Assembly (NCBI RefSeq): GCF_001544015.1
Contig: NZ_AP014924.1
Coordinates: forward strand, 868,001-932,000
From: Limnochorda pilosa
GTDB lineage: Bacteria; Bacillota; Limnochordia; Limnochordales; Limnochordaceae
Length of the DNA: 64,000 bases
Direction of reading: 5' to 3'
In this document: positions 47,149-62,380 of the stretch, one piece after another
How the letters are laid out: each line of letters opens with the position of its first letter
How positions within the stretch are numbered: position 1 is the stretch's first letter
Translations under genes and position numbers: made by a program
Notes under the pieces: generated by a model
The model's database searches: none
What the model was told of the DNA's origin: nothing
The model's input: only the letters and a program-made list of their open reading frames with translations

Positions 47149-47910
47149 CTACACCTCTCGGCGCCGCAGGGCTGCGTGGGCCAGGAACAGGGCCAGGCCG
47201 GTCCAGGCTACGGTCACCAGGGCGGCCCTCCAGAGGCCGGGCACCGGCTGGGCCAGGGCCACCTTGGCCAGGTCCGCCACATGGACGGGAAGCCAGCCCG
47301 CCAGGGCACGGCGGAAGAGCGGCACCAGGCTGAGCCCCATGGGCACCGCGATGGAGGCAGCCACCACGCCCATCTGGCTGCTCAGGAGCGAGCTGAAGAC
47401 CAGGGTGGAGCCCAGGATGAAGAGGCCGTACAGGCTGAAGGAGAGGGCCGCGACCAGCACCGCCCCCCACGCGAGGGGGCCGAAGAGCATCTGGGTGTAG
47501 TACGCCGCGGCCACGGTGCCGAGGACCACGGAGCCCACCACCACCAGCCCGAGCACCGCCCACTTGGCCAGGAGGTACCGGGCCCTGGAGTAGCCCAGGG
47601 TGAGGACCACCGCCGCCTGGCCCAGCTCGATTTCCCGGGAAACGGCGCCCATGGCCGCGAGGATGATGAAGAGCACCCCGAGCTGCCGGTACTGGTCGAA
47701 GACCTGGCCCAGGATCGCCGGCGGCGGGAGCGGCGGGATCTCGATGACCGCGCCCTCGGGCAGCCCGGACATCTGCAGGATCTGGGGCATGAAGTGGGTC
47801 GCGAGCGGCTGGCTCACGCCGAAGAAGACGAGGGCCAGCAGCAGGAAGAGCAGCTTGTGGGTGCGCAGGGCGTCGAGCCACTCCTTGCGCAGAAGGGCAC
47901 CCAGGTTCAC
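47149..47910 (-). CDS. ABC-2 type transporter permease
   Basis: This 253-residue protein has six predicted membrane segments, with the first after RKEWLDALRTHK and a large extracytoplasmic loop between the first two. This is the ABC-2 exporter layout. GTG 47910 overlaps the ATPase stop as GTGA, so the two are translationally coupled. The cargo is unknown. With the ATPase and the small membrane protein it forms a three-gene exporter operon. Confidence 0.88.
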   Translation of the reverse strand: MNLGALLRKEWLDALRTHKLLFLLLALVFFGVSQPLATHFMPQILQMSGLPEGAVIEIPPLPPPAILGQVFDQYRQLGVLFIILAAMGAVSREIELGQAAVVLTLGYSRARYLLAKWAVLGLVVVGSVVLGTVAAAYYTQMLFGPLAWGAVLVAALSFSLYGLFILGSTLVFSSLLSSQMGVVAASIAVPMGLSLVPLFRRALAGWLPVHVADLAKVALAQPVPGLWRAALVTVAWTGLALFLAHAALRRREV

Positions 47911-48809
47911 CGGCCGTTCACCACCCGGAGGAAGACGTCTTCCAACGAAGCCTTGCTCTTGGCGAACCGGAGCACCGAGACCCGGGGGAGGGAGGCCAGG
48001 GTCCGCATCGCCTCGGGTGCCTCTTCGTCGCCGGTGAGGGCCAGCACCAGGGTGGGGCCCTCCACCCAGGAGCCCTGGACCCACGGCTGCTCCGAGAAGA
48101 CGGCCTGCACCCGCTCCAGCTCCCCGTCCGTCCCCGCCAGCTCCACCTCGTAGCGGGCGGGAACCTCCCGGCGGAGCTCAGGCATCGTACGCTGCAGCAG
48201 CGCCCGCCCGTCCCGCATGATGACCACCTCGTCGCAGACCCGCTCGGCGTCGTCGAGGATGTGGGTGGACATGATCACGCAGCGCTCCCGCTTGATCTCG
48301 CCGATGAGGTTCAGCACCTCGTGGCGGCCCACCGGGTCCAGGGACGAGACCGGCTCGTCCAGCACCACCAGGTCCGGCTCGTGAAGCAGGGCGGCGGCTA
48401 GGCCCAGCCGTTGCCTCATGCCGCCCGAGAAGCCGCCCACCCGCCGGCGGCCCGCACCCTCCAGACCCACCTGCCGGAGCCAGCGGGGCACGGCCTCCTT
48501 CAGCTCGCCGGACGGCATTCCCACGGCGGCACCCACGAACTCCAGGTACTCGCGCCCGGTCATCCACCCGAAGAGCCCCGGCTGCTGGGGGAGGTATCCG
48601 ATGCGGCGCGCCCGGCTGGTGATGGCGCCGCCGTCGATGCGGGTGAGCCCCAGGAGGCTCTTGAGGGCCGTGGTCTTGCCGGCCCCATTGGGCCCCAGGA
48701 GGCCGAGGCAGCCCGAGGAGGGCACCCCGAAGCTCAGCCCGTCCAGCGCCCGGACCTCCCCGTACCGCTTCTCCACCTCCTGAAACTCGACCAGCGCCTC
48801 CCGCGTCAC
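47907..48809 (-). CDS. ABC transporter ATP-binding protein
   Basis: This 300-residue protein has Walker A GLLGPNGAGKTT, the Q-loop in GYLPQQPGLFGWMT, signature FSGGMRQRLGLAAAL, Walker B LVVLDEP and H-loop STHIL. A C-terminal about 80-residue domain is typical of ABC-2 exporter ATPases. GTG 48809 is behind GGTGGAG and overlaps the stop of the preceding small gene as GTGA. Confidence 0.93.
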   Translation of the reverse strand: MTREALVEFQEVEKRYGEVRALDGLSFGVPSSGCLGLLGPNGAGKTTALKSLLGLTRIDGGAITSRARRIGYLPQQPGLFGWMTGREYLEFVGAAVGMPSGELKEAVPRWLRQVGLEGAGRRRVGGFSGGMRQRLGLAAALLHEPDLVVLDEPVSSLDPVGRHEVLNLIGEIKRERCVIMSTHILDDAERVCDEVVIMRDGRALLQRTMPELRREVPARYEVELAGTDGELERVQAVFSEQPWVQGSWVEGPTLVLALTGDEEAPEAMRTLASLPRVSVLRFAKSKASLEDVFLRVVNGR

Positions 48810-49003
48810 GCCGACTCCACCTTTCCCCAGAGCAGGTAGCCCAGCGGCCCCAGGGTGCTCACCAGCAGGATCACCAGCGCCCAGACCCACCGGGTGTGCC
48901 AGCGCACCGCGCGGGGCTCCTGTTTCGCGAGGTCCTGCAGGGCGTAGGCCTTGAGCAGCAGTTCCACCACCACCAGCGGCCAGAGGAGCCTCAGGATCTC
49001 CAT
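48806..49003 (-). CDS. PLDc_N-type small membrane protein
   Basis: This 65-residue protein has two membrane helices: EILRLLWPLVVVELLLKAYALQDL and WVWALVILLVSTLGPLGYLLWGKVE. The second with its L-GPLGYLLWGK ending is the PLDc_N (cardiolipin-synthase N-terminal) motif, often found alone next to ABC-2 operons. ATG 49003 follows AAGGAGGG. It is the first gene of the exporter operon. Confidence 0.82.
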   Translation of the reverse strand: MEILRLLWPLVVVELLLKAYALQDLAKQEPRAVRWHTRWVWALVILLVSTLGPLGYLLWGKVESA

Positions 49004-49132: not shown

Positions 49133-50122
49133 TCAGGCGTGCCGGGAGCCCAGGAGGTCGCCCCGCGGGACAACCTCCAACCGCGTCATCATCCCGCCAG
49201 GGAATTCCCCCTCGTTGGTGGCGTGGTACAGGTCGCGGTCGAAGATGTAGTACTCCCCCGGCGCCCGAGCCGTCAGGATGACGTCACAGGTCTGTCCGGG
49301 CGCCAGGGTCAGCGTATGCTTCTCATAGGTCGCGTCCAGGGCCGGCGTCCTCAGGGGGTAGCCGTCCTCGGCCACCACCCGGACCGACAGGCCGCCGAAA
49401 TGCAGCGCATGAGGATAGAAGGCCGTGTTGACGCAGCGCAGCAGGACGCGCTGCCCGGTCGTGGCGGTGACGCGCGCGCCCAGGGGCTGGCTCGAATCGT
49501 TGTCGGGCGCCAACGTGTCGGGGAAGGCCCGCCCGTTGATCATCCACCCATCGGGCGCGTAATCGAGCGGGTCGTGAGGCAGGCCGGAGGCGACAGCGTG
49601 GTGCAGCCGACTGTCCACCTCCCCGAGCACCAGCACGCGCTCCACGTCGTATTCCGAACCGGTGCCGGTCCCATAGGCCGTCCAGGTGGCCGGGTCGACC
49701 GGGTCGAGCCCCGCCGGCCGCACGATCAGCACGCCGGCGAGCCCCATCTGCACCTGCCGCTCCGGGTGGGTGCCGCTCTCATACCGGTACGTGCCCGGAC
49801 GCGCCGCCTGGAACGCGTAGGCCACCGAATCCTGGGGTTCCGCGTGGGCCGTGAAGGATACCCACCGGTCGCCGGCGTCCTCCTCCGACCGGGGAACGAG
49901 GGGCTGGCCGGGAAAGATCATCGATACCGGCTCCGCCAGAGTGTTGTGGAGAACCACCTGCAGGGTGTCCCCCGCGGTCACGTCCAGGGTCGGGCCGGGG
50001 ATCATGGACGGACAGGAGTCCATGGCGTACCCCCACACCGGGATGGACACCGGACCACCCGCGCCGGGCATCGCGATGGTCCCGGCCTTGGCCCAGATGT
50101 GCTTGATCACCGTCGCAGGCAC
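49133..50122 (-). CDS. Two-cupredoxin multicopper-oxidase-like protein without copper motifs (MCO-A)
   Basis: This 329-residue protein has two cupredoxin domains. Where copper motifs should be, the sequence is degenerate: VLHNTLAEPVSMIFPGQP in place of HxHG, YESGTHPERQVQMGL in place of HCH...H..M, YPHALHFGGL in place of HPxHxHG, and IFDRDLYHATNEGEFPGGMM in place of HSH. It is probably a structural subunit. GTG 50122 follows GAGGAGA. Last gene of the four-gene operon. No signal peptide is visible. Confidence 0.85.
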   Translation of the reverse strand: MPATVIKHIWAKAGTIAMPGAGGPVSIPVWGYAMDSCPSMIPGPTLDVTAGDTLQVVLHNTLAEPVSMIFPGQPLVPRSEEDAGDRWVSFTAHAEPQDSVAYAFQAARPGTYRYESGTHPERQVQMGLAGVLIVRPAGLDPVDPATWTAYGTGTGSEYDVERVLVLGEVDSRLHHAVASGLPHDPLDYAPDGWMINGRAFPDTLAPDNDSSQPLGARVTATTGQRVLLRCVNTAFYPHALHFGGLSVRVVAEDGYPLRTPALDATYEKHTLTLAPGQTCDVILTARAPGEYYIFDRDLYHATNEGEFPGGMMTRLEVVPRGDLLGSRHA

Positions 50123-50151
50123 GTCGTTTCTCTCCTCAGTCTGATGGTCAA

Positions 50152-51345
50152 CTACGCCAGCACCCCAGCGTCCGGCCCCAGGGTGCCGGCGGGGTAGACG
50201 GCGATGAACGTCATGATCCCGCCGGGGTGCTCACCCCAGTTGGTCATCTGAAACTCGGAATGGGAGTGCAGGATGATGTAATGCTCCCTGATCCGGTTGA
50301 AGGAGGTGACGCCCACGGGGAGATCCCCCTTGTGGCCCAGGTAGGCGCTCCCGCTCCAGTAGGTCCAGCCGTCGGCGCCGATCACCAGGTTGCGCAGGTT
50401 GGGTAGGACCGTCGGGATCGGGTTGGCTGGGGTGAACTCCAGGCCGGTCCATTCGAAGATCATGTCGCAGGTCTCGCCGGCGCCCGCCCGCACCGTGAAC
50501 CGCTTGTAGGACAGGTCGGACGCGCCGTTCCGCAGGAGGTGGCCGTCCAGGGCCACCAGGCGGGTGTGGTTCCCGTGGGGGTGGATCGGGTGGCCGTCGA
50601 CCCCCGCGCCGGCGTACCGCAGCAGCACCCGCTCCCCGGGCTCCATCTCGATCAGCGTCCCGTAGGGCTGGTTGGGCAACTGAGGAACCCGATCCGGGGC
50701 CAGGGTGTCCGGGGCGCAGCGCCCGTTGAGGGTCCAGTAACGAGGACGGCGGGCTTTGACGTCATGCGGCAGCCCCAGCCGGACCGCCCGGTGGAATTCG
50801 GGATCCATCTCCCCGAAGATCATCAGGTACTCGCGGTCGTACTCCGTACCGGTTCCCGCTCCGTACGCCGTCCGGTTGGTCGCCGGGTCATAGTCGGCCG
50901 GATGGACGACGATGGCGCCGTACAGCCCCATGGGCACCTGCCGGTGGGGATCGGTCCCGCTCTCGTAAAGGTACGTTCCGGGACGGGCGGCGACGAACCG
51001 ATAGGTGATCGTCTGGCCGGGCAAAGCCGCGGGCATGAAGGAGACCCGTCTGCCTCCCGCGTCCTGGGGCCGAGCCGGCTCCCAACCCCCGTCTCCCAGG
51101 ACCATGACCTCCTCTTGACCCGGGAACCGGAGGGAGACCGGTTCCGCGAGCCGGTTGGTCAGGTTGACGACCACCTCGTCCCCCTGGTCGATGACCAGGG
51201 TCGGACCGGGCAACTGGGCCGGAACGTCCGGTGCACCCGCGAAACCCCACACATAGAGGCTGTTGCCGTCAGGAATGCTGACAAAGCCGTCCGTGGCCCA
51301 CAGGTCCACGGTGCGCACCTGGGTCGTGATCGCTTCTTCCGTCAT
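50152..51345 (-). CDS. Two-cupredoxin multicopper-oxidase-like protein with only the C-terminal half-site (MCO-B)
   Basis: This 397-residue protein has two cupredoxin domains. The first lacks copper ligands (NRLAEPVSLRFPGQEEV, YLYESGTDPHRQVPMGL). The second has a good half trinuclear site: H252-P-I-H255-P-H257-G and H360-S-H362-SEFQMTN followed by PGGIM. No Cys stands at the type 1 position, so it cannot hold a type 1 copper. ATG 51345 gives seven bases after GGGGGG; an ATG two codons earlier is too close to it. No signal peptide is visible. Confidence 0.87.
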   Translation of the reverse strand: MTEEAITTQVRTVDLWATDGFVSIPDGNSLYVWGFAGAPDVPAQLPGPTLVIDQGDEVVVNLTNRLAEPVSLRFPGQEEVMVLGDGGWEPARPQDAGGRRVSFMPAALPGQTITYRFVAARPGTYLYESGTDPHRQVPMGLYGAIVVHPADYDPATNRTAYGAGTGTEYDREYLMIFGEMDPEFHRAVRLGLPHDVKARRPRYWTLNGRCAPDTLAPDRVPQLPNQPYGTLIEMEPGERVLLRYAGAGVDGHPIHPHGNHTRLVALDGHLLRNGASDLSYKRFTVRAGAGETCDMIFEWTGLEFTPANPIPTVLPNLRNLVIGADGWTYWSGSAYLGHKGDLPVGVTSFNRIREHYIILHSHSEFQMTNWGEHPGGIMTFIAVYPAGTLGPDAGVLA

Positions 51346-51427
51346 GCCCATGCCCCCCTGCCGTTCGCCGCGTCCAGCGCTACGACCGTGAGAGTAGCCC
51401 ATCTACGGCATGCCGCGTCCTCGCCCT

Positions 51428-52459
51428 CTAGCGGTTCGGCTCCCGCTGGGGCTGCAGGGTGCCGTGGCGATGCACCTGGACCGTGGCGATCATGCCCCCG
51501 GGGGCAGCCCCGGCGTTGACGTTCTTGTGATAGCCACGGTTGTAGAACGGGTATTGCCCCGGGGCCGGGGCCGTGAAGAGGGCGTCGACCGTCTGGCCGG
51601 GGCTGATGGGCACCACGTTCCGCCAGGCCGCCAGATCCTCCCCGCCCAGGCCACGCAACCTCTGGGCATCGAGACCCACGATCCGGACGGGGATCCCCAG
51701 AATCTCCATGGCGTGCTCCTCATACCCCAGGTTGATGAACCGCAGCAGCACCCGTTCCCCCACGTTGGCCCGGATGCAGGTCCGCCAGGGCTGCTGGGGC
51801 AACTGCTGGCTTTCACCCTCGACGGTGTCGGGATAGGCTCGGCCGTTGAGCAGCCAATACTTGGGCCGGTAGTCGGTCCAGTCGTACTCCTGCACGTTGG
51901 CGACCAGGTCGTGGCCGACCGGGTCCAGCTCCATGAGGAATACCACGTATTCCCGGTCGTACTCGGTCGACGGGTCGTCATAGGCGAACTTCCGGCCGGC
52001 GTAGGCCGGGTCCCGCTCCAGGGCGGGCCGGACGATGACGGGCCCCACCATCCCCATCTGGATGTGCTCGGCCGGTTCAAAGTGGCAGTGGTACATGTAG
52101 GTCCCAGGGTCTTGGGGCTTGAAGTAGTAGGTGAAGTCCCGACCCACCGGAACCGAGATCGAGACCTCGGGCACACCGTCGTACAGGGGGATCTGGTTCG
52201 GGAACCCGTGCCAGTGGATGGTGTGGGAGTCATCCAGGTCCGGCCTTTGGGGGAGCCCCAGGTTGGTCAGGGTCAGGTAGATGTCGTCCCCCTCGCCGGC
52301 GTCGACCAGGGGCCCCGGGAGTTCGGCCTTGCCCCGGTCGGACCAGATCCTCTTCTCAGGGACGCCGGTGATCTCGACGAAGCCGAAGATGTAGTGGCTG
52401 GACCCGTCGGGCATCCGGACCCATCCGTCGGTGGCGCCGAGCCGCAAGTCCTTTCGCAT
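51428..52459 (-). CDS. Two-cupredoxin multicopper-oxidase-like protein with type 1 and N-terminal half-site (MCO-C)
   Basis: This 343-residue protein has a first cupredoxin domain with a full set of type 1 ligands and half a trinuclear site: H79-T-I-H82-W-H84-G and H124-C125-H126-FEPAEH132-IQM135-GM137. The second domain is degenerate (EEHAMEILG, FYNRGYHKNVNAGAAPGGM). Alone it lacks four of the eight histidines of a trinuclear cluster; the missing four are present in MCO-B. ATG 52459 lies 11 bases after the stop of the large surface protein and follows GAGGAGGGG. No signal peptide is visible. Confidence 0.88.
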   Translation of the reverse strand: MRKDLRLGATDGWVRMPDGSSHYIFGFVEITGVPEKRIWSDRGKAELPGPLVDAGEGDDIYLTLTNLGLPQRPDLDDSHTIHWHGFPNQIPLYDGVPEVSISVPVGRDFTYYFKPQDPGTYMYHCHFEPAEHIQMGMVGPVIVRPALERDPAYAGRKFAYDDPSTEYDREYVVFLMELDPVGHDLVANVQEYDWTDYRPKYWLLNGRAYPDTVEGESQQLPQQPWRTCIRANVGERVLLRFINLGYEEHAMEILGIPVRIVGLDAQRLRGLGGEDLAAWRNVVPISPGQTVDALFTAPAPGQYPFYNRGYHKNVNAGAAPGGMIATVQVHRHGTLQPQREPNR

Positions 52460-52470
52460 GTCACCCCTCC

Positions 52471-55400
52471 TCAAAGGACCTCGTCCGCGCCCGGGTCCAC
52501 GGCGGCGCCCTGGGGCCGGGCGTCTCCGTCGATGTCCCGCGAGGGCGCGTCGTAGCGCACACCGTCGACGGTGAACGCCGCCACGCCCCGGTCCACGACG
52601 GGTGACGGCGGCGTCAGGTGGTAGTCGCCCTGCCATTCGGGTGTCACGGTGACGATCCGGACAACCCTGAAGTCCGGCTCCCGCCGGAAGGCCACAGCGC
52701 TGAGGACGGTGTCGTACTCCTGAACGAAGCCGGGCGGGTTGGCGCCATCGTACACGATGTTCCCGATGCCGCTCCCGTACGGCGCGGACAGGTAGCAGTG
52801 GTTCGGCGTCACCTGCCGTGGCGCCGCCGTCCCGAAGACCTCCAGGTCGATGACCGTGCCGTCCGGTGCCAGTTGGCCCGCGACCGGGTCGAAGTGATAG
52901 GCCCGGTTGTCCCAGAAGAGGTTGTTGAAGAGAACCGGGTCGCTGAAGTCCGGGGCGCCCGGGGGCAGGGAGGCCTGGAAGGGCGCGCTGTGGCCCTCGC
53001 TGACCAGGCCGGCACCGTGGGGGAGGCCGTCGCTGTCCTCGGCCGTGGCCGTGGAGGCGTTCTTGGCGATGGTGTTGTTGAAGATTGCCACGTCGGAGGC
53101 GTCGTCGAGGGCGATGCCTCCACCCAGGTCCGTGGCCACGTTGTTGACGATCAGGTTGTTGTAGATCCGGACCGGGTGGGTTCCCGCCCGGAGGAGGCGG
53201 ACGCCGCCGCCGTCGTCGTTGGACAGGTTGCCCTGGATCAGGTTGGCGTGGATCTCCACCGCCCCGGACCCGGCCGAGAGCGTCGCCGGCGGCAGGGGCT
53301 GCTCGCCGCCGATCAGGATGCCTCCCCCCTCGTCGAAGGCCGCGTTGAAGAGGATACGGTTGTGGTGAATGCGCCCGCCGGGGCTGAGCCCCAGGTGGGA
53401 GATCCCGCCCCCGTACTCGGCCGAGTAGTTGCCGCCGATGTCGTTGTAGGCGATCTCGTAGTCGTCGGCGCCGTTGAAGAGGCCGATGGCGCCGGCCAGG
53501 CTGATGCCGCCGTTGTTCAGGACGCGGTTGTGGTGGATGCGGATGTTCTCGTTGTGGTTGGTGCCGGCGTACGGCCTGCCCACGGTGATGGCCCCACCGA
53601 AGCCGCCGCCGTTGTATTGGATCACGTTGTTGCTGATCTCCAGGTGCCGGGCGAAGGCGTTGATGAGGATGCCCCCGCCCTCCTCGCCCCGGGCGCCGGT
53701 GAGGGTCAGACCGTCGATCTGGGCGTTGAACCGGCCACGCCGGCGGAAACGCCCATCCTTGGCGAGGACGGTGATCACCTGGCCCCGGGGGATCTCCTGG
53801 GGCCCGTCGAAGTCGATACCGGCCAGCTTGGCCTCCCGCGCCTGCTGTTGGTTGGCGAAGAAGCGGCCGTCGACGACGGTCCGCTTCCAGCCCATGCCCT
53901 GCAGCTTGACGTTCTTGTAGAGGATCGGGTTCTCGTAATAGGTGCCAGGCTGGATCACGATCAGGTCGCCGTCCCGGGCGCCGTCGATGGCCGCCTGGAT
54001 CGTGGAGGTCGCCGTGGCGGTGATCACCCGCGGGTTGTACCCCCGGCCGAGGACGTGGAAGGTGATCCCCGTCGGGCTGACCTGTCCGTTGGCGGCGGTG
54101 ACCAGGAGTTGGGCCGGGCCCGCGGGGAAGGTCGCCGGCACCGTGGCCTGGATCCGGGTATCGGTCCAGGAGGAGATGGGGATCGGCACGCCGTTCAGGG
54201 TGACCCGTCCCGTCCCGGCGCCGAAGCCGGTGCCGGTGAGGGTGACCGTACGGGAGGCTCGCCGCGTGACGTACACCGGGTCGACCAGGTGGACCTGGGG
54301 CGTCCCGGCAGGGAGGTCGATGACGGGCGGCTGGCTGAACTGGGCGCCGGGGAAGGCGACGAAGGCGGTGATCGGGAAGAGGGCCACGTCGGCGTAGGTG
54401 GTCTTGCCCGGCCAGACGTCGAAGACCAGCTTCAGGCTCTGATAGTTCGGGTTGTAGTTCGGGTTCGGGTCGTCGGGATCGCCCGGATCGTTGCCGATGA
54501 CCTGGACCATGGCCGGGGCGACACCCGAGGGCGTCGGCACGTTCCGGGTGTAGGTGGACGGCAGCAGGACCTCGAAGATCCCGTTGGCGTCCGAGTGGAC
54601 CGTGGTGAGCAGCTTCCCGGTGAAGTCGCGGATGCCGACCGGCGTGTTGGGGATGCCGCGCTTTTCCCCGTAGTAGATGAAGTTCGGATCAGTCTCGATG
54701 TTGACGTCGTCCAGGAGGAACCCGACGATCCGGCCGGGCACCGGGACGTCGGTGAAGAGGAAGAAGTCGGCCGCGGCGTTCTGCCCGGACTCGAGGGTGA
54801 CGACCTTCCGGTCGCGGGCGGCGCCCAGGTACGGCGGCGGCATCAAGAGGGCCCGGAAGACGTCGCCCTCCGCCGTGTTTTCGGTCCCCTCCGCCAGGAC
54901 TCGGTAGCCGGGCGGCGGGACCACCTCCACCACGTAGGTGCCGGGGTCCAACCCCAGGAAGGCGTAGCCGCCGTCGAAGAGGCCCTCCCGGACCTGGTTC
55001 GAGTTGTTGGGCACCTCCAGGCAAAGGGGATCGGCGGTCCCGTCCGGCCGCGGGCAGTCCGCCGGGTGCCGCCAGGCGTCGGTCTGGACCGAGTCCACCG
55101 GGGTGAGGCTACCGTCCGGCTCCTGACGGTAGAGGTTGACGGTGACGTTGGGGATGCCCGGCTCGTAATCCTCGACGGCGGCCATCCGAGGATCGGTCTC
55201 GTTACGCATGACGGCGTAGTAGACCACGCCGGTGATCCCGCCGTTGGTCACGTCGTCGGCCGTCCCGGCGATCCCGTCGGGACCGAGCAGGGGGTACCGC
55301 TTCATCCCCCAGTCGACCCGGTTGACCTTGGCGGCCCAGGTCAGCTCGGCCACCAGCAGGGCGGCCAGGCCGGCGCCGGGAACGGGCAGCGACGGCCGGG

Positions 55401-56766
55401 GCGGGCTCACGTTGGCGTCGGGCGCGGCGACGGCGCCGGTGACGCCGAACCGGGTGAAGCCCAGTTCGGCGACGGCGAAGCGCTCCAACTCGAAGACCTC
55501 GTCCAGGGAGAAGCTCCCGTCGGGGTCGGTCACGGTTCCGTACTGGACGCTGCCGTCCTTGAAGCGGGTCCCGACCGCGACGAAGGGGATGCCCGCCTCC
55601 CCGGGGTCCCGGACGCCGTTCTCGTTGGTGTCGTGGAAGACGGTTCCCTTGATCCAGCCAAACCACCGGGGGATGCCGACGTCTCCCATGGCCACCGTCT
55701 CGCCGGCGGCCACCTGCACCGTGCGGAAGGAGATGATGTAGTCCAGGGGTTCGTCCCAGATGGCCATCTGGTAGAGGCCCGGCGGCACGTTTTCGATGGT
55801 GAAGGTGCCGTCGGGGTTGCCCCGCCCCAGGTAGACCTGCTCATCGGTGTTGCCGATGTCGGTGAGGGCGATCCAGGGGCGGTCCACCGGCTCGCCCAGG
55901 ACGATGGGGTTCACCGGCGGCGTGAATTCGACGACGGTCCGGACGCTCCCGGTGATCGTCCCGGTCAGCACGCCGGGCGCCGGGACCGGGAATTCCATCG
56001 GACGGACGAAACCGAACCAGACCAGCGGCACGCGGAAGCCCTCCCGCGGGCTGTAGCCGTCGTTCCCCTCCTCGATCCAGGCGTCGATGACGTGGGTGCC
56101 TTCGATGGTCGTCGTCTGCACCCAGTCGGTGCCGTCGGGCGGGATGGCCTGGACGCCGTACTTGCCGGGTGGCAGGTTGTCGATGAGGGCCTCGCCGTTG
56201 GCGTCGGTCAGGATCAACCCGCCGGTGTCGGGGACCGGGACGGGGTTGCCGTCGGGATCCAGGACCACGTTGCCGTCGCGGTCGCGCCGGTACTGGGTCC
56301 CCAGGGGGTTTCCGAAGGAGTCGACGGTCACCTCGCCGACCGCGTCCTGGATCACGATGCGGAAGCCGGGCAGGCCGGACTCCAGCGGGATGTCGTCCTC
56401 GCCGTTGACCGGGTGGTTGTCGTGGAAGACCCGGACGCGGATCTTGGAAAGCGGCAGCGGGTGCGGGTGGAGTTCGACCCTGACGGTCGTGTCGACGCCG
56501 GTGAGGGCAACCCAGTTCCCGCCCATCTTGTGCCCAGGCGCCAGGACGGAGACCAGGTAGTGGCCGGGTGGCAGGTCCACCGTGGGACAGGTGGCATCCC
56601 CGGTGGCCACCACCGGGCTGTGGCTGGCCCCCGGCCGCAGGGAGGGCCAGTTCGCCGGGTCGGAAGCGAAGGGGTCTCCTACGTTGTCCTCGTTGACGAC
56701 GAACCTGAAATCGGTGACAGCGGCGCCTGTCTTCACCTGCACCACGTCGATGGTCAGCAGGGCCAT
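52471..56766 (-). CDS. Giant SdrD-B-like/TIG/right-handed beta-helix protein
   Basis: This 1431-residue protein starts at ATG 56766. From about residue 110 to 740 it has several carboxypeptidase-regulatory or SdrD-B-like beta-sandwich modules (GTVFHDTNENGVRDPGEAGIPF; DANGEALIDNLPPGKYGV; AFLGLDPGTYVVEVVPPPGY). A TIG/IPT domain lies near 835-900 (TVTLTGTGFGAGTGRVTLNG). A right-handed beta-helix follows at about 905-1330 with repeated HxN/NNxI turns (IRIHHNRVLNNGG; IYNNLIVNNVATDLGGG; AIFNNTIAKN). The C-terminus is short. Such architecture is normally extracellular, but no signal peptide is present. It is the first gene of the operon with the three copper proteins, so it is a likely scaffold. Confidence 0.88.
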   Translation of the reverse strand: MALLTIDVVQVKTGAAVTDFRFVVNEDNVGDPFASDPANWPSLRPGASHSPVVATGDATCPTVDLPPGHYLVSVLAPGHKMGGNWVALTGVDTTVRVELHPHPLPLSKIRVRVFHDNHPVNGEDDIPLESGLPGFRIVIQDAVGEVTVDSFGNPLGTQYRRDRDGNVVLDPDGNPVPVPDTGGLILTDANGEALIDNLPPGKYGVQAIPPDGTDWVQTTTIEGTHVIDAWIEEGNDGYSPREGFRVPLVWFGFVRPMEFPVPAPGVLTGTITGSVRTVVEFTPPVNPIVLGEPVDRPWIALTDIGNTDEQVYLGRGNPDGTFTIENVPPGLYQMAIWDEPLDYIISFRTVQVAAGETVAMGDVGIPRWFGWIKGTVFHDTNENGVRDPGEAGIPFVAVGTRFKDGSVQYGTVTDPDGSFSLDEVFELERFAVAELGFTRFGVTGAVAAPDANVSPPRPSLPVPGAGLAALLVAELTWAAKVNRVDWGMKRYPLLGPDGIAGTADDVTNGGITGVVYYAVMRNETDPRMAAVEDYEPGIPNVTVNLYRQEPDGSLTPVDSVQTDAWRHPADCPRPDGTADPLCLEVPNNSNQVREGLFDGGYAFLGLDPGTYVVEVVPPPGYRVLAEGTENTAEGDVFRALLMPPPYLGAARDRKVVTLESGQNAAADFFLFTDVPVPGRIVGFLLDDVNIETDPNFIYYGEKRGIPNTPVGIRDFTGKLLTTVHSDANGIFEVLLPSTYTRNVPTPSGVAPAMVQVIGNDPGDPDDPNPNYNPNYQSLKLVFDVWPGKTTYADVALFPITAFVAFPGAQFSQPPVIDLPAGTPQVHLVDPVYVTRRASRTVTLTGTGFGAGTGRVTLNGVPIPISSWTDTRIQATVPATFPAGPAQLLVTAANGQVSPTGITFHVLGRGYNPRVITATATSTIQAAIDGARDGDLIVIQPGTYYENPILYKNVKLQGMGWKRTVVDGRFFANQQQAREAKLAGIDFDGPQEIPRGQVITVLAKDGRFRRRGRFNAQIDGLTLTGARGEEGGGILINAFARHLEISNNVIQYNGGGFGGAITVGRPYAGTNHNENIRIHHNRVLNNGGISLAGAIGLFNGADDYEIAYNDIGGNYSAEYGGGISHLGLSPGGRIHHNRILFNAAFDEGGGILIGGEQPLPPATLSAGSGAVEIHANLIQGNLSNDDGGGVRLLRAGTHPVRIYNNLIVNNVATDLGGGIALDDASDVAIFNNTIAKNASTATAEDSDGLPHGAGLVSEGHSAPFQASLPPGAPDFSDPVLFNNLFWDNRAYHFDPVAGQLAPDGTVIDLEVFGTAAPRQVTPNHCYLSAPYGSGIGNIVYDGANPPGFVQEYDTVLSAVAFRREPDFRVVRIVTVTPEWQGDYHLTPPSPVVDRGVAAFTVDGVRYDAPSRDIDGDARPQGAAVDPGADEVL

Positions 56767-57107
56767 GATCCAACCCCCCGGCGCATTCCTCCCCTGCCAC
56801 CCGCGACCGAGAGAAGAGCAGGATCGACAGCAGCCTATGGCTCGTCTCGGGAATATGTGACAGCCTATCCTACCGCTTGAGGGTCGGGGGCTTTAGAGAC
56901 CGCCACCCGGCAATCGTCCCCGACCACGAGCCGCACTCATGGCGCCCCCAACCGCTCCTCCCTGGAGTCGTAGAACTCCCTCGGGATCTCCAGGGAGGTG
57001 GTGGCCACGGCGTACTCCTCCAGGAATCCCAGGCCGCCGAAGAGCTCCATGGCGAGCCGCGCGCGCTCGGCAGCGTGGTCCGCGGTGCGCCGGGCAGCGC
57101 GCGGGCC
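56767..57107. other. Region between hydrogenase operon and copper-oxidase operon
   Basis: These 341 bases hold the leader of the copper-oxidase operon, a pair of direct repeats and a minus-strand coding remnant. I see no intact gene. Confidence 0.4.
56831..56868. repeat. Direct repeats CAGCCTAT, 30 bp apart
   Basis: CAGCCTAT occurs at 56831-56838 and 56861-56868, exactly 30 bases apart (about three helical turns), in similar contexts (GACAGCAGCCTATGG and GTGACAGCCTATCC). They lie 65-102 bases before the first gene of the copper-oxidase operon, so they could be regulator sites. Confidence 0.4.
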
Positions 57108-57727: not shown

Positions 57728-59659
57728 TCAGTTGTGCTGCGGCGAGGTATGGCCGTTCCTCACGGCCGCCCCCTGCTCCCCCTCGGCCTGCCCTTCGTCT
57801 GGAGCGCCCACACCGCCGGTGCGGGCCGCCGGATCCCCGTCCCCGCCCAGCAGCAGCTCGTTCAAGGGGAGGGGCGTGTAGCTGGTGTGGAGCAGGTGGT
57901 GCGCCTCCACGGAGCCGGGCTCACCCAGCAGGTCCCGGTAGACCCGCTGGATCGTCTCGTTCTCGTGGGAGGTGTGGGCGGGCTTCCTCGAGTCGATGGC
58001 ATCGAGCCCCGCGCCCCGCCGCTGGACCCGCTCCAAGGGCGTGTGCCTGGGCTGGCCGCCGCCGTCGATGCAGCCGCCGGGGCAGGCCATCACCTCCACG
58101 AAGTCGTAGGAGCGGTACTCGCCGGTCTCCAGCAGCCTGCGGGCGCCCTTGAGGCCGCTCACCACCGCACAGCGCACTTGCGTGCCGTTCAGGTCGAACT
58201 CGACGGCGCGCAGGTCGTCCCAGCCCCGTACCAGGTGGAACTCGGGGCGGGCGGCGGTCTGGCCGGTGGCCAGGTGGTAGGCCTCCCGCAGGGCCGCCTC
58301 GGCCACGCCGCCGCTGGCGCCGAAGATGGCCGCCGCCCCCGTGGACTCGCCCAGCGGGTCGTCGAAGGGCTTGGGCGGCAGGGCGCCGGGGTCCACGCCC
58401 GCCTGGCGCAGCAGCCGGGAGAGCTCCCGGGTGGTGAGGACGATGTCCACGTCGGAGCGCCCGTCCGTACCCAGCTCCGGGCGGGTGGCCTCGTACTTCT
58501 TGGCGGTGCACGGCATGATGGAGACCACCGTGACCCGCTCGGGATCCACGCCGGCCAGGCGCGGGTAGTAGCGCCGCAGGAGCGACCCCATCATCCCCTG
58601 GGGGGAGCGGCAACTCGAAAGGTGGTGGACCTGGTCCGGGAAGTGGAGCTCCACGAAACGGACCCACGCCGGGCAGCAGGAGGTGAAGAGAGGGAGCTCC
58701 TTGCCGGAGCCCAGCCGGGCCAGGAGCTCATGGGTCTCCTCCATGATGGTGAGGTCCGCGCCGAACTGGGTGTCGAAGACGGCGTGGAACCCCACCGCCT
58801 TCAGCGCGCTCACCAGGCGGCCGGAGACGTCTGCGGGTATCCCCGAGCCATCCGGCTCCCGCCCCCGCGCCCAGGCTTCGCCCACGCTCACCCGCACGGC
58901 GGGGGCGATCTGGGCCACCACCACCCGCGTGGGGTCCTCCAGCGCCTCCCAGACCCGGCTGACGTCGTCCTTCTCGGTGAGGGCGCCGGTGGGGCAGACG
59001 AGGGTGCACTGGCCGCAGTAGGTGCAGCCGCTCTTCGCCCAGTCCAGACCGAAGGGTGGCGAGACCTGCATCCGCATCCCGCGGCGCACGAGGCCGATGG
59101 CCTCCACGCCCTGAACCTCGCTGCAGGTGCGCACGCACCGCTGGCAGAGGAGGCACTTCTGGGGGTCGTAGGCGATGGACGGACTGCTGGGGTCCGGAGG
59201 GAGGGGACGGAGGTCCGTCTCGTAGTCCCTGGAGCGGACGCCGTACTGCCGGGCCAGGGCCTGGAGGTCGCAGTCGTCGGACCGCTGGCAGAAGAGGCAG
59301 TCGTTGGGGTGCCCGGCCAGCATGAGCTGCAGCACGGCCCGGCGGGCCTCGAGCACCCGCGGGGAGTGGGTGAGGACCTCCATCCCCTCCCGCACCCGGG
59401 TGGCGCAGGAGGCCTGGAGGCGGCGGTCGCCCGCGAGCTCCACCAGGCAGAGGCGGCAGGCGCCGATGCCCGGCAGCCCTTCCAGGTAACAGAGGCTGGG
59501 TACGGGAAAGCCGCTGGAGCGCAGGACCTCCAGGAGGTTCGCGCCCGCCGGGGCCTCCACGGGGTGCCCGTTCACCCGGATACGGGCCGTGGCGGGCGCT
59601 GCTCCGGCGGCTCCGCTTCCGCTTGCGTGGGTCCCTGCATTGGCTGGCATGGCTCCCAT
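57728..59659 (-). CDS. hydA: [FeFe] hydrogenase catalytic subunit
   Basis: This 643-residue protein has an N-terminal [2Fe-2S] domain (SLCYLEGLPGIGACRLCLVE), a His-Cys [4Fe-4S] site (HPNDCLFCQRSDDC), two [4Fe-4S] clusters (CLLCQRCVRTC, CTYCGQCTLVC), and the three H-cluster motifs: FTSCCPAW, MPCTAKKYE and EVMACPGGCIDGGGQP. The HENETIQRVYRDLL small-subunit-like segment and a charged tail follow. It oxidises or evolves H2 in the cytoplasm. HydB and HydC genes precede it, giving a trimeric NADH/ferredoxin-type enzyme. ATG 59659 follows AGGGGGT. Confidence 0.95.
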   Translation of the reverse strand: MGAMPANAGTHASGSGAAGAAPATARIRVNGHPVEAPAGANLLEVLRSSGFPVPSLCYLEGLPGIGACRLCLVELAGDRRLQASCATRVREGMEVLTHSPRVLEARRAVLQLMLAGHPNDCLFCQRSDDCDLQALARQYGVRSRDYETDLRPLPPDPSSPSIAYDPQKCLLCQRCVRTCSEVQGVEAIGLVRRGMRMQVSPPFGLDWAKSGCTYCGQCTLVCPTGALTEKDDVSRVWEALEDPTRVVVAQIAPAVRVSVGEAWARGREPDGSGIPADVSGRLVSALKAVGFHAVFDTQFGADLTIMEETHELLARLGSGKELPLFTSCCPAWVRFVELHFPDQVHHLSSCRSPQGMMGSLLRRYYPRLAGVDPERVTVVSIMPCTAKKYEATRPELGTDGRSDVDIVLTTRELSRLLRQAGVDPGALPPKPFDDPLGESTGAAAIFGASGGVAEAALREAYHLATGQTAARPEFHLVRGWDDLRAVEFDLNGTQVRCAVVSGLKGARRLLETGEYRSYDFVEVMACPGGCIDGGGQPRHTPLERVQRRGAGLDAIDSRKPAHTSHENETIQRVYRDLLGEPGSVEAHHLLHTSYTPLPLNELLLGGDGDPAARTGGVGAPDEGQAEGEQGAAVRNGHTSPQHN

Positions 59660-59670
59660 GGCCAGACCCC

Positions 59671-61647
59671 CTAGGCCGCCGTGACGGCGGCGAAGTTGCA
59701 GATCCTGAGGCAGAGCCCGCACCGCTGGCAGAGCTCAGCGTCGATGTGGTACGGTTGGCCCTTCTCGCCGCCGATGGCGCCCTGGGGGCACGAGCGGGCG
59801 CAGAGCCCGCAGCCGGTGCAGAGGGCCGGGTCGATGGCGTAGGCCAGCAGGTCCGTGCACTGGCCGGCCGGGCACCGGTGCTCGAGCACGTGGGCCCGGT
59901 ACTCGTCGGGAAAGTAGCGCAGGGTGCTCAGGACCGGGTTGGGCGCCGTCTGCCCCAGCCCGCACAGCGACGCCTCGCGCACGCTGCGGGCCAGGGCCTC
60001 CACCTTCCGGAGCACGGCCTCTCCGTCTTCTTCGGCCTCGCTTGCCGTGCCCGGCGCGTGCCGGCGGGTCATCTGCTCCAACATGCCGCAGAGGCGGTCC
60101 ACCCCCACCCGGCAGGGGGTGCACTGGCCGCACGACTCCTCGCGGCAGAAGTTCAGGAAGAAACGGGCCACGTCCACCATGCAGTTGGTCTCGTCCATGA
60201 CCACCATGCCGCCGGAGCCCATGATGACGCCCGCCTCCACCAGCGACTCGTAGTCCACCGGCGTGTCGAGCTGCTCCTGGGGCAGGCAGCCGCCGGAAGG
60301 GCCGCCCATCTGGACCGCCTTGAAGCGGCGCCCATCCGCCACCCCGCCGCCGATCTCCTCGATGATCCGCCGCACGGGCATGCCCATGGGGACCTCGATG
60401 AGGCCGGGCCAGCTCACCTTGCCGCTGACGGCGAAGACCTTGGTGCCCTTGCTGGTCTCGGTGCCGATGGAGGCGAACCAGCGGCCGCCCCGGACGACGA
60501 TGTCCGGCACGTTGGCGTAGGTCTCCACGTTGTTGATGTTGGTGGGCCGCCCGAACACACCCTGCTCGGCCGGGTAGGGCGGCCGGGGCCTAGGCATGCC
60601 GCGCCGGCCCTCGATGGAGGCGATGAGGGCTGTCTCCTCGCCGCAGACGAAGGCGCCCGCCCCGATCTTCAGCTCGATGTCGAAGGAGAAGCCGCTGCCC
60701 AGGATGTCCTCTCCCAGGTAGCCGTGCTCCCGGGCGAGGGCGACGGCCTTCTCGAGCCTGCGGACGGCCAGGGGGTACTCGGCCCGCACGTAGACGAACC
60801 CTCGGCTCGCGCCCACGGCGTAGGCCCCGAGGGTCATGCCCTCCAGCACCCGGAAGGGGTCGCCTTCCAGCACGCTCCGGTCCATGAAGGCGCCGGGGTC
60901 CCCCTCGTCGGCGTTGCAGACCATGTACTTCTCCTCGCCCGGGCTCCGGCGGGCCAGGGCCCACTTGCGCCCCGTGGGGAAACCGGCGCCGCCCCGGCCC
61001 CGCAGGCCCGACACGGTGACCTCTTCGATGACCTGCTCGGGCGTGAGCTCCAAGAGCGCCCGGCGCAGGCCCCGGTAGCCGCCCCGGCCCAGGTACTCCT
61101 CCAGGGACTCGGGGTCGATGAGGCCGCAGTTCTGGAGGACGATGCGCGTCTGGTGCCGCATCATCGGATGCTCGCTGAGCAACGGCAACCGCCCGGGGAA
61201 GGCAGGCTCGTCGGGGCCGGGCTGGATGAGGGCCTGAAGCGGGGCCTCAGGGGCGGAATCGGGCGAGCCCGGGGCATCGCCAGGCAGCGTCTCCTCCACG
61301 ACGCCCAGCAGGAGGTCGCCGGGCACGACACCGTGGTCCACGTACTCGTGCAGGATCCGCCTCAGGTTCCGCTCGTCGCACGGTCCGAAGGAGAGGCGGA
61401 GCCCACCGGGTAGACGAACGTCGACGATCGGCTCCCAGTGGCACATGCCGATGCACCCGACCTGCTTGACGGTCGCCTCCTGCCCGCGGGCGGCCAGCTC
61501 CTGCTTCAGGAGTGCCATCACCCGGTCGGCACCCGCGGCGATCCCGCACGTGCCCGAGCCCACATAGAACTGGGGCAGCGCGACCTGCGGCCGGCGGGTC
61601 GCGTCCGTGGGACGAAGGGAGGCGGCCTGGCGCGCGGCGGTAGCCAC
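59671..61647 (-). CDS. hydB: NuoF-like diaphorase subunit of [FeFe] hydrogenase
   Basis: This 658-residue protein has an N-terminal thioredoxin-like [2Fe-2S]-type domain (GTCGIAAGADRVM, GCIGMCHWEP), the NADH/FMN-binding region (SGLRGRGGAGFPTGRKW, ACNADEGDPGAFMDR-type block CNADEGDPGAFM), an SLBB segment, the [4Fe-4S] site ESCGQCTPCRVG, and C-terminal two-cluster ferredoxin repeats (CTGCGLCARSC, CQRCGLCLRIC). It exchanges electrons with NAD(H). GTG 61647 follows GGAGGAGG. Confidence 0.94.
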   Translation of the reverse strand: MATAARQAASLRPTDATRRPQVALPQFYVGSGTCGIAAGADRVMALLKQELAARGQEATVKQVGCIGMCHWEPIVDVRLPGGLRLSFGPCDERNLRRILHEYVDHGVVPGDLLLGVVEETLPGDAPGSPDSAPEAPLQALIQPGPDEPAFPGRLPLLSEHPMMRHQTRIVLQNCGLIDPESLEEYLGRGGYRGLRRALLELTPEQVIEEVTVSGLRGRGGAGFPTGRKWALARRSPGEEKYMVCNADEGDPGAFMDRSVLEGDPFRVLEGMTLGAYAVGASRGFVYVRAEYPLAVRRLEKAVALAREHGYLGEDILGSGFSFDIELKIGAGAFVCGEETALIASIEGRRGMPRPRPPYPAEQGVFGRPTNINNVETYANVPDIVVRGGRWFASIGTETSKGTKVFAVSGKVSWPGLIEVPMGMPVRRIIEEIGGGVADGRRFKAVQMGGPSGGCLPQEQLDTPVDYESLVEAGVIMGSGGMVVMDETNCMVDVARFFLNFCREESCGQCTPCRVGVDRLCGMLEQMTRRHAPGTASEAEEDGEAVLRKVEALARSVREASLCGLGQTAPNPVLSTLRYFPDEYRAHVLEHRCPAGQCTDLLAYAIDPALCTGCGLCARSCPQGAIGGEKGQPYHIDAELCQRCGLCLRICNFAAVTAA

Positions 61648-61649
61648 GG

Positions 61650-62309
61650 CTACTTCCTCCTCCGGTAGCGGGCCAGGATGCGGGGAACCTGCCGGGAGGT
61701 GACCCGTCCGAAAACCTCGCCGTCGATGACGACGGCCGGCGACATGCTGCACGCACCCAGGCAGGCCACGGTCTCCAGGCTGAAGAGCCCGTCGGGCGTG
61801 GTCTCGCCCGGCTGGATGCCCAGCTCGGACTGGACCCGCTCCAACAGCCCCTGGGCGCCCTGGACGTGGCAGGCCGTTCCCTGGCAGATGCGGATGGTGT
61901 GCTGCCCGGGCGGGGTGAGCTTGAAGAAGTTGTAGAAGCTCGCCACCCCGTAGGCCTGGGCGACGGAGATGCCCGCCTCCCCGGCGCAGCGCACCACCTC
62001 GGGGCGGGGAAGGTAGCCGTGCTGCTCCTGGACCTGCTGCAGGAGAACGATGATGGAGGACCGGCCCGCTGCAGGAGTGTCTCGCCCGGGTTCCGCCCGG
62101 CGAACGGGGAGGGGGACCACCTTCAGGTCCGGCGGGGCCGGAGAGGCGGTGGCTGCGCCGTTCGCCCGCGCGCTGTCCGTCCGCAGCGCAGCCCGGTCCG
62201 CGGCCCCCGGAGTGGTGGTTGTCCCCGGAGAAGCGGGCACAGGGCGGCGTGCGGCATCAACGGTCTCTAGGCCCTCCAGGGGAAGGCTGGGAACGGATTC
62301 GAACCCCAT
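61650..62309 (-). CDS. hydC: NuoE-like [2Fe-2S] subunit of [FeFe] hydrogenase
   Basis: This 219-residue protein has a disordered N-terminal about 75 residues. The NuoE thioredoxin-like domain follows, with [2Fe-2S] cysteines in ICQGTACHVQGA and TVACLGACSMSPAV. It bridges electrons to HydB. ATG 62309 follows GGAGGGT. The stop overlaps the ribosome site of hydB, so the genes are coupled. The N-terminal extension is longer than usual for HydC and is Ala/Pro-rich. Confidence 0.92.
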   Translation of the reverse strand: MGFESVPSLPLEGLETVDAARRPVPASPGTTTTPGAADRAALRTDSARANGAATASPAPPDLKVVPLPVRRAEPGRDTPAAGRSSIIVLLQQVQEQHGYLPRPEVVRCAGEAGISVAQAYGVASFYNFFKLTPPGQHTIRICQGTACHVQGAQGLLERVQSELGIQPGETTPDGLFSLETVACLGACSMSPAVVIDGEVFGRVTSRQVPRILARYRRRK

Positions 62310-62362
62310 CCGGGACCCTCCTGCCTGCAACCAGCGGGACCAAGATGATCCCGCTGGGGAAT

Positions 62363-62380
62363 TTGTGATCCATATCACAA
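62363..62380. promoter_or_regulatory. Rex- or Crp/Fnr-type palindrome over the hyd operon transcription start
   Basis: TTGTGATCCATATCACAA has two perfect 7-base arms (TTGTGAT and ATCACAA) with a 4-base centre. It fits the Rex pattern TTGTGA-N6-TCACAA and also the Crp-type TGTGA-N6-TCACA. On the minus strand it begins five bases after the -10 box, so a bound protein would block initiation. Confidence 0.75.

Follow-up and report, generated by a model that had tools for sequence, protein, structure and literature searches.

Three adjacent genes of Limnochorda pilosa very probably encode the subunits of one multicopper oxidase, an A:B:C heterotrimer of paralogues with a single active site shared between two of them. 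The genes lie in a stretch of 64,000 nt (the window), and the coordinates given below for them and for the large protein encoded beside them are all within this window and on its minus strand. We call their products C, B and A (MCO-C, MCO-B and MCO-A) and number their domains, C1 being the first domain of C. Judged by their sequences, C and B together carry every metal-binding residue of one multicopper oxidase, and the site would lie at the interface between C1 and B2. The case for the heterotrimer is made by gene order, homology, complementarity of ligands, correlated loss, fold matches and gene fusions, from which ring assembly, a 1:1:1 stoichiometry, copper loading, O2 reduction and a surface location are predicted. 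We found no description of the C-B-A trio in the open-access literature.

The first of the two cupredoxin domains of C (51428..52459) is active, with the type 1 (T1) copper site and four trinuclear histidines, and the second is dead. The motif HTIHWHG (residues 79-85, 52205..52225) provides the T1 ligand His79 and the trinuclear His82 and His84, and HCHFEPAEHIQMGM (residues 124-137, 52049..52090) provides the trinuclear His124 and His126 together with the T1 ligands Cys125, His132 and Met137. In B (50152..51345) the first domain is dead, with YESGT replacing YHCHF, and the second holds the other four trinuclear histidines, in HPIHPHG (residues 252-258, 50572..50592; His255 and His257) and HSH (residues 360-362, 50260..50268; His360 and His362). 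B2 also contains an insertion with a conserved SGSPYLG core (residues 301-350, 50296..50445) that is missing from C and A and is a candidate contact with C. Both cupredoxin domains of A (49133..50122, GTG start) are dead, the set HxHG/HCH/HxH being absent, and A would be the structural third member of the ring. A previous sequence-only reading of the window had described three adjacent open reading frames with copper motifs in C and B and none in A, which our reading frames, Pfam matches and motif searches confirm; its residue numbering of B fits a start at 51345, to which an ATG at 51402 is a possible alternative. C, B and A each match Pfam multicopper oxidase models (Cu-oxidase_3, Cu-oxidase_2 and Cu-oxidase among the three), and PF00394 has no matches in the whole genome other than C and A of this locus. 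The genes are separated by 82 bp (C-B; 25 bp with the upstream start of B) and 29 bp (B-A), and Shine-Dalgarno-like sequences precede C and A.

The split of the ligands is conserved. We aligned 96 C and 97 B sequences, in which some genomes occur twice and 83 distinct C have an adjacent B. His79, His124, Cys125, His132 and Met137 are present in all 96 C, and His82, His84 and His126 in all but one, the exception belonging to a locus without B; His255, His257, His360 and His362 are present in every B (97/97). The same ligands are invariant in diverse alignments of 58 C and 64 B rows, with 37-66% identity to the window proteins. Over about 97 loci C1 always holds the T1 ligands together with four of the trinuclear histidines and B2 always holds the other four, never the reverse, and T1 ligands are absent from B and A. 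The dead positions hold conserved replacements: in B1, those equivalent to C125, H126, H132 and M137 became Ser (97/97), Gly (96/97), Gln (96/97) and Leu (94/97), and in C2 and A2 the HxH motif is mostly replaced by aromatic-x-Arg. The losses must therefore be old and have become fixed, as opposed to decay in recent times, and because ligands and replacements are both conserved we can exclude chance as the source of the motif pattern. The sequences also exclude a complete copper site in a homotrimer of C, of B or of A.

This organization is far more general than a local oddity. When B was used as query against 398 genomes of the window's own phylum, the trio was recovered repeatedly and always in the order C-B-A. 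A scan of the B alignment over 84,980 species genomes, the genome-contig scan through which all other phyla were sampled, gave 216 relatives of B, the best 80 of which define loci L058-L137. In 76 of these 80, C, B and A are consecutive on one strand, and the other four (L075, L096, L107 and L131) are cut by contig ends. The tree of B spans Bacillota, Chloroflexota, Actinomycetota, Pseudomonadota, Myxococcota, Acidobacteriota, Nitrospirota, Planctomycetota and Thermodesulfobacteriota. The trio is thus present in at least nine phyla, and the complementary loss pattern, a search for which had been suggested with the original proposal, is conserved across them. Additional copies occur in Cupriavidus metallidurans CH34, on its chromid (NC_007974.2, about 1.336-1.346 Mb), and on replicons of Paraburkholderia, where all three proteins carry the annotation 'hypothetical protein'. 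Among viral contigs we found no relatives of C. One might suppose that the trio is the gene of a six-domain MnxG-type oxidase broken in three, given its six cupredoxin domains overall, its one active site and the occurrence of MnxG-type proteins in Bacillota (PMC3600357). Yet the 80 loci include no fused C-B-A reading frame, and prokaryotic six-domain oxidases have the T1 site in domain 2 and the cluster between domains 2 and 3 (PMC3600357), whereas the T1 site of the trio is in the first domain of a chain. We hold this origin to be extremely unlikely.

We came across three C genes that lack a B, and they bear on what happens to the ligands when the partner is lost. In one genome (G114, locus L040) B is absent and C lies 9 bp from A; its motifs HTIYWEG and HCYFETVEH retain the T1 site and have lost three of the four trinuclear histidines. 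In a genome of a different family (G464, L202) B is missing between C and A, although this genome is 72% complete and a B elsewhere is not strictly excluded. Its C reads ESLQPDWRIPP and YYCPFEPVERIQMGM, with nearly all ligands lost, and a genome of the same genus (G466, L203) has the full trio with every ligand intact. The third locus (G235, L047) was wrecked recently: a deletion has taken B together with half of A, and C carries a frameshift but retains its motifs. Trinuclear ligands are thus lost in two of three B-less C, from separate lineages, against none of about 86 C beside B (hypergeometric estimate of ~8e-4, or 2.6e-4 when the wreck is left out). A search for B and C occurring alone and active, the situation that the sequence-only reading considered damaging to its proposal, returned none: two of the three B-less C are ligand-poor and the third is a pseudogene.

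These losses also bear on whether C and B might act separately, C as a T1 copper electron carrier and B in copper storage or delivery, with no shared trinuclear site. The T1 site of C is complete, a T1-only form can persist, as in the B-less C of G114, which lacks the full trinuclear set, and CopC/CopD genes recur near some loci, as does SCO1 near five. But separate roles leave unexplained why every C beside B has four trinuclear histidines and B their exact complement, and why these histidines are lost upon loss of B, and we consider them quite unlikely.

Ancestry and fold agree with a common enzyme of the two-domain type. In profile comparisons C1, B1 and A1 score 107-345 with each other, and C2, B2 and A2 171-232, against at most 40 across the two sets, B1 and A1 being the closest domains. 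Since scores within sets greatly exceed those across sets, A, B and C are paralogues from one two-domain ancestor. We set aside the correlation between the distance matrices of C, B and A (0.85-0.92), which is confounded by host phylogeny. Single-chain AlphaFold models reach a mean predicted local distance difference test score of 90.3 for C and 89.6 for B, and Pfam and structure matches bear out two cupredoxin domains per chain across the full length of both. Their best structural matches are two-domain oxidases with the T1 site in domain 1, 2zwn and 3g5w (Z 30.1 and 29.6 for C, 31.3 and 30.9 for B; 269-282 residues aligned, root-mean-square deviation 2.4-3.0). Two-domain oxidases are trimers in which residues of two protomers build the trinuclear site, those with T1 in the N-terminal domain being called type C (PMC13151041). 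Homology with these trimers implies that C1 lies opposite domain 2 of one adjacent chain, and the missing ligands are found only in B2.

If C, B and A do form one heterotrimer, each would fold as a two-cupredoxin chain, and the chains would close head-to-tail into a six-cupredoxin ring, as in homotrimeric type C oxidases, with copper at only one (C1/B2) of the three domain-1/domain-2 interfaces. Substrate electrons would enter at the T1 copper of C (His79, Cys125, His132 and Met137) and pass via its His-Cys-His motif to a trinuclear cluster bound by His82, His84, His124 and His126 of C and by His255, His257, His360 and His362 of B, where O2 would be reduced to water. A would bind no copper and would close the ring. 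Candidate substrates are metal ions (Cu(I), Mn(II) or Fe(II)) or phenols.

Several observations weigh against this mechanism. The low-confidence stretches of the models (residues 80-100 of C and 301-350 of B) are at or near the half-sites, leaving their local geometry unproven. In both G114 and G464, C and A remain open frames after the loss of B, and the remaining pair may also have a copper-free role. Finally, many Bacillota hosts are anaerobic (for example Moorella and Desulfotomaculum), where a role in reducing O2 is not obvious. Such lifestyles, together with copper nitrite reductases being the next-best structural matches (Z about 26-30), could suggest an enzyme like these reductases or one otherwise independent of O2, instead of an oxidase. 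We find this very unlikely, as the best structural matches are four-copper oxidases and all eight trinuclear histidines are invariant in C and B. In copper nitrite reductases the type 2 site is mononuclear, unlike the full set of eight histidines across C and B.

The trio has a frequent companion. Ending 11 bp before C is the gene of a surface-type protein of 1431 aa (52471..56766) with Pfam matches to SdrD_B, carboxypeptidase-regulatory, TIG and beta-helix domains. The sequence-only reading described the three oxidase genes as co-transcribed and left this gene out, which is nevertheless part of the unit. A homologue is present in 76 of 81 loci, and most of the others are truncated; it is likewise absent from the B-less L040 and L202. 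At one locus of an Acidobacteria genome (L108) the large protein and C form a single reading frame of 2281 aa, with 52% identity to the homologue in L115, and in Paraburkholderia (L141, 13517-21688) the large protein is fused behind A in a product of 2723 aa. Because of these two different fusions, the same partner is tied to both C and A. In L136 an apparent fusion of C and the large protein did not hold up, as the additional frame shows no similarity to the latter, so that L108 is the only true fusion with C. The large protein is thus a constant partner of the enzyme, and its role is probably to display it on the cell, or on the spore in spore-forming Bacillota. In a Moorella genome (G430, L056) a single deletion eliminated C, nearly all of B and a portion of the large protein, sparing A. 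Antisense to the large protein, an open frame of 1420 aa (52618-56880, plus strand) is most likely a shadow frame of high-GC coding sequence.

The fusion with A raises the question of whether the enzyme might be a pair of B and C, with A as a dispensable remnant or in the service of the large surface protein. A is the least conserved of the three (domain identity 0.40-0.43 against 0.47-0.54) and the most variable in length, and it carries the large protein in Burkholderiales. On the other hand, it is found in every complete locus, and, judging by the known homologous trimers, a ring of two-domain units requires three of them. We therefore favour a heterotrimer including A, and regard the pair as unlikely.

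The leaders of the Chloroflexota and Actinomycetota proteins are by eye twin-arginine-like in C and Sec-like in B and A; the Bacillota copies have none. The genome of the window encodes SpoIVA, and its organism therefore probably sporulates. In Desulfallas and Moorella, Coat_F or Mn-catalase genes flank the trio, and in Bacillota the enzyme may be located in the spore coat, as CotA and Mnx are. On balance, it is reasonably likely that the trio represents an undescribed domain-wide class of oxidases, each an obligate heterotrimer of paralogues with one shared site and assembled with a giant surface protein on cells and spores.

A protein of ~190 aa with no Pfam match follows A in ~49 loci, including most of those in Chloroflexota and Actinomycetota (e.g., L083:13127-13690). 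In a planctomycete (L135:1668-4097, plus strand) a vanadium-haloperoxidase/PAP2-like domain precedes C in a fusion of 809 aa, and the B of Kribbella and Actinoplanes (L118, L123, L128 and L136) has a C-terminal extension of ~250 aa. In some loci of high GC content (e.g., L099, L105 and L110), reading frames that would greatly lengthen the N terminus of A or B were taken to be spurious overlaps. Downstream of A in the window, also on the minus strand, are genes for an ABC transporter ATPase, an ABC-2 permease and a small membrane protein (47149-49003); we rejected a common operon with this transporter (47149-48800), which is not among the recurrent neighbours. Upstream of the trio, an operon resembling an NADH-type [FeFe] hydrogenase (57728-62378, minus strand) encodes catalytic (57728-59722), flavoprotein (59671-61752) and thioredoxin-like (61650-62378) subunits. 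A scan of the locus for promoters and terminators found nothing, which is uninformative in a genome of such high GC content.

Among known enzymes, the type C oxidases (mgLAC, 2zwn; the blue copper oxidase of Nitrosomonas europaea, 3g5w) are the most similar: each chain has two cupredoxin domains, the first of which holds T1 (here in C only), and there are the same ligand motifs in domain 1, as in C, and in domain 2, as in B. They differ in having both half-sites in each chain, and thus three active sites per homotrimer, whereas in the trio the half-sites are on separate gene products and a C-B-A ring can contain only one complete site. Related genomes also hold ordinary, self-sufficient type C oxidases, such as one at L057 (1907-3358, minus strand; 32% identity to C). 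The latter is homologous to C and to the domain 2 family, but has both half-sites in one chain (HTIHWHG, HCH...H...M, HMHG and HAH) and an extra cupredoxin domain. The CotA spore-coat laccase, with three domains and T1 in domain 3, is also unlike the trio, with its two domains per chain and T1 in domain 1.

The six-domain oxidases (ceruloplasmin, hephaestin, Fox1 and MnxG) resemble the trio in having six cupredoxin domains, in having lost part of their copper sites and in their one trinuclear cluster. However, each consists of one chain, where T1 occupies even-numbered domains and the cluster lies between domains 1 and 6 or 2 and 3 (PMC3600357), unlike the three separate reading frames and the T1 site in the first domain of C. 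Of the two analogies initially drawn for the trio, that with trimeric two-domain oxidases is supported by the fold match, and that with MnxG and ceruloplasmin fails as a template, given their T1 sites in even-numbered domains. The Mnx complex of Bacillus (MnxG with MnxE3F3) is another multicopper oxidase whose activity depends on other products of its own operon, and is located on the spore. Its partners MnxE and MnxF, of about 12 kDa, are unlike any characterized protein (PMC5622069) and have copper of their own, whereas those of the trio are paralogous cupredoxin chains donating ligands.

The trio is a widespread and unrecognised variation on the theme of the two-domain multicopper oxidase. 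On the current view, ceruloplasmin and its six-domain relatives arose from a two-domain protein that was triplicated and lost copper sites. If our interpretation is correct, the trio would be a living parallel to a hypothetical step on that path, in which a homotrimer was triplicated and its sites were lost in a complementary manner before fusion into six-domain proteins; this parallel would sit on the type C branch, with no fusion. Annotation of single chains would miss the whole class, including the copy in Cupriavidus metallidurans CH34, a model of metal resistance. Triplication with work divided between chains would also open this step to experiment, and in particular the question of whether the subunits became locked to one another through complementary loss that was neutral.

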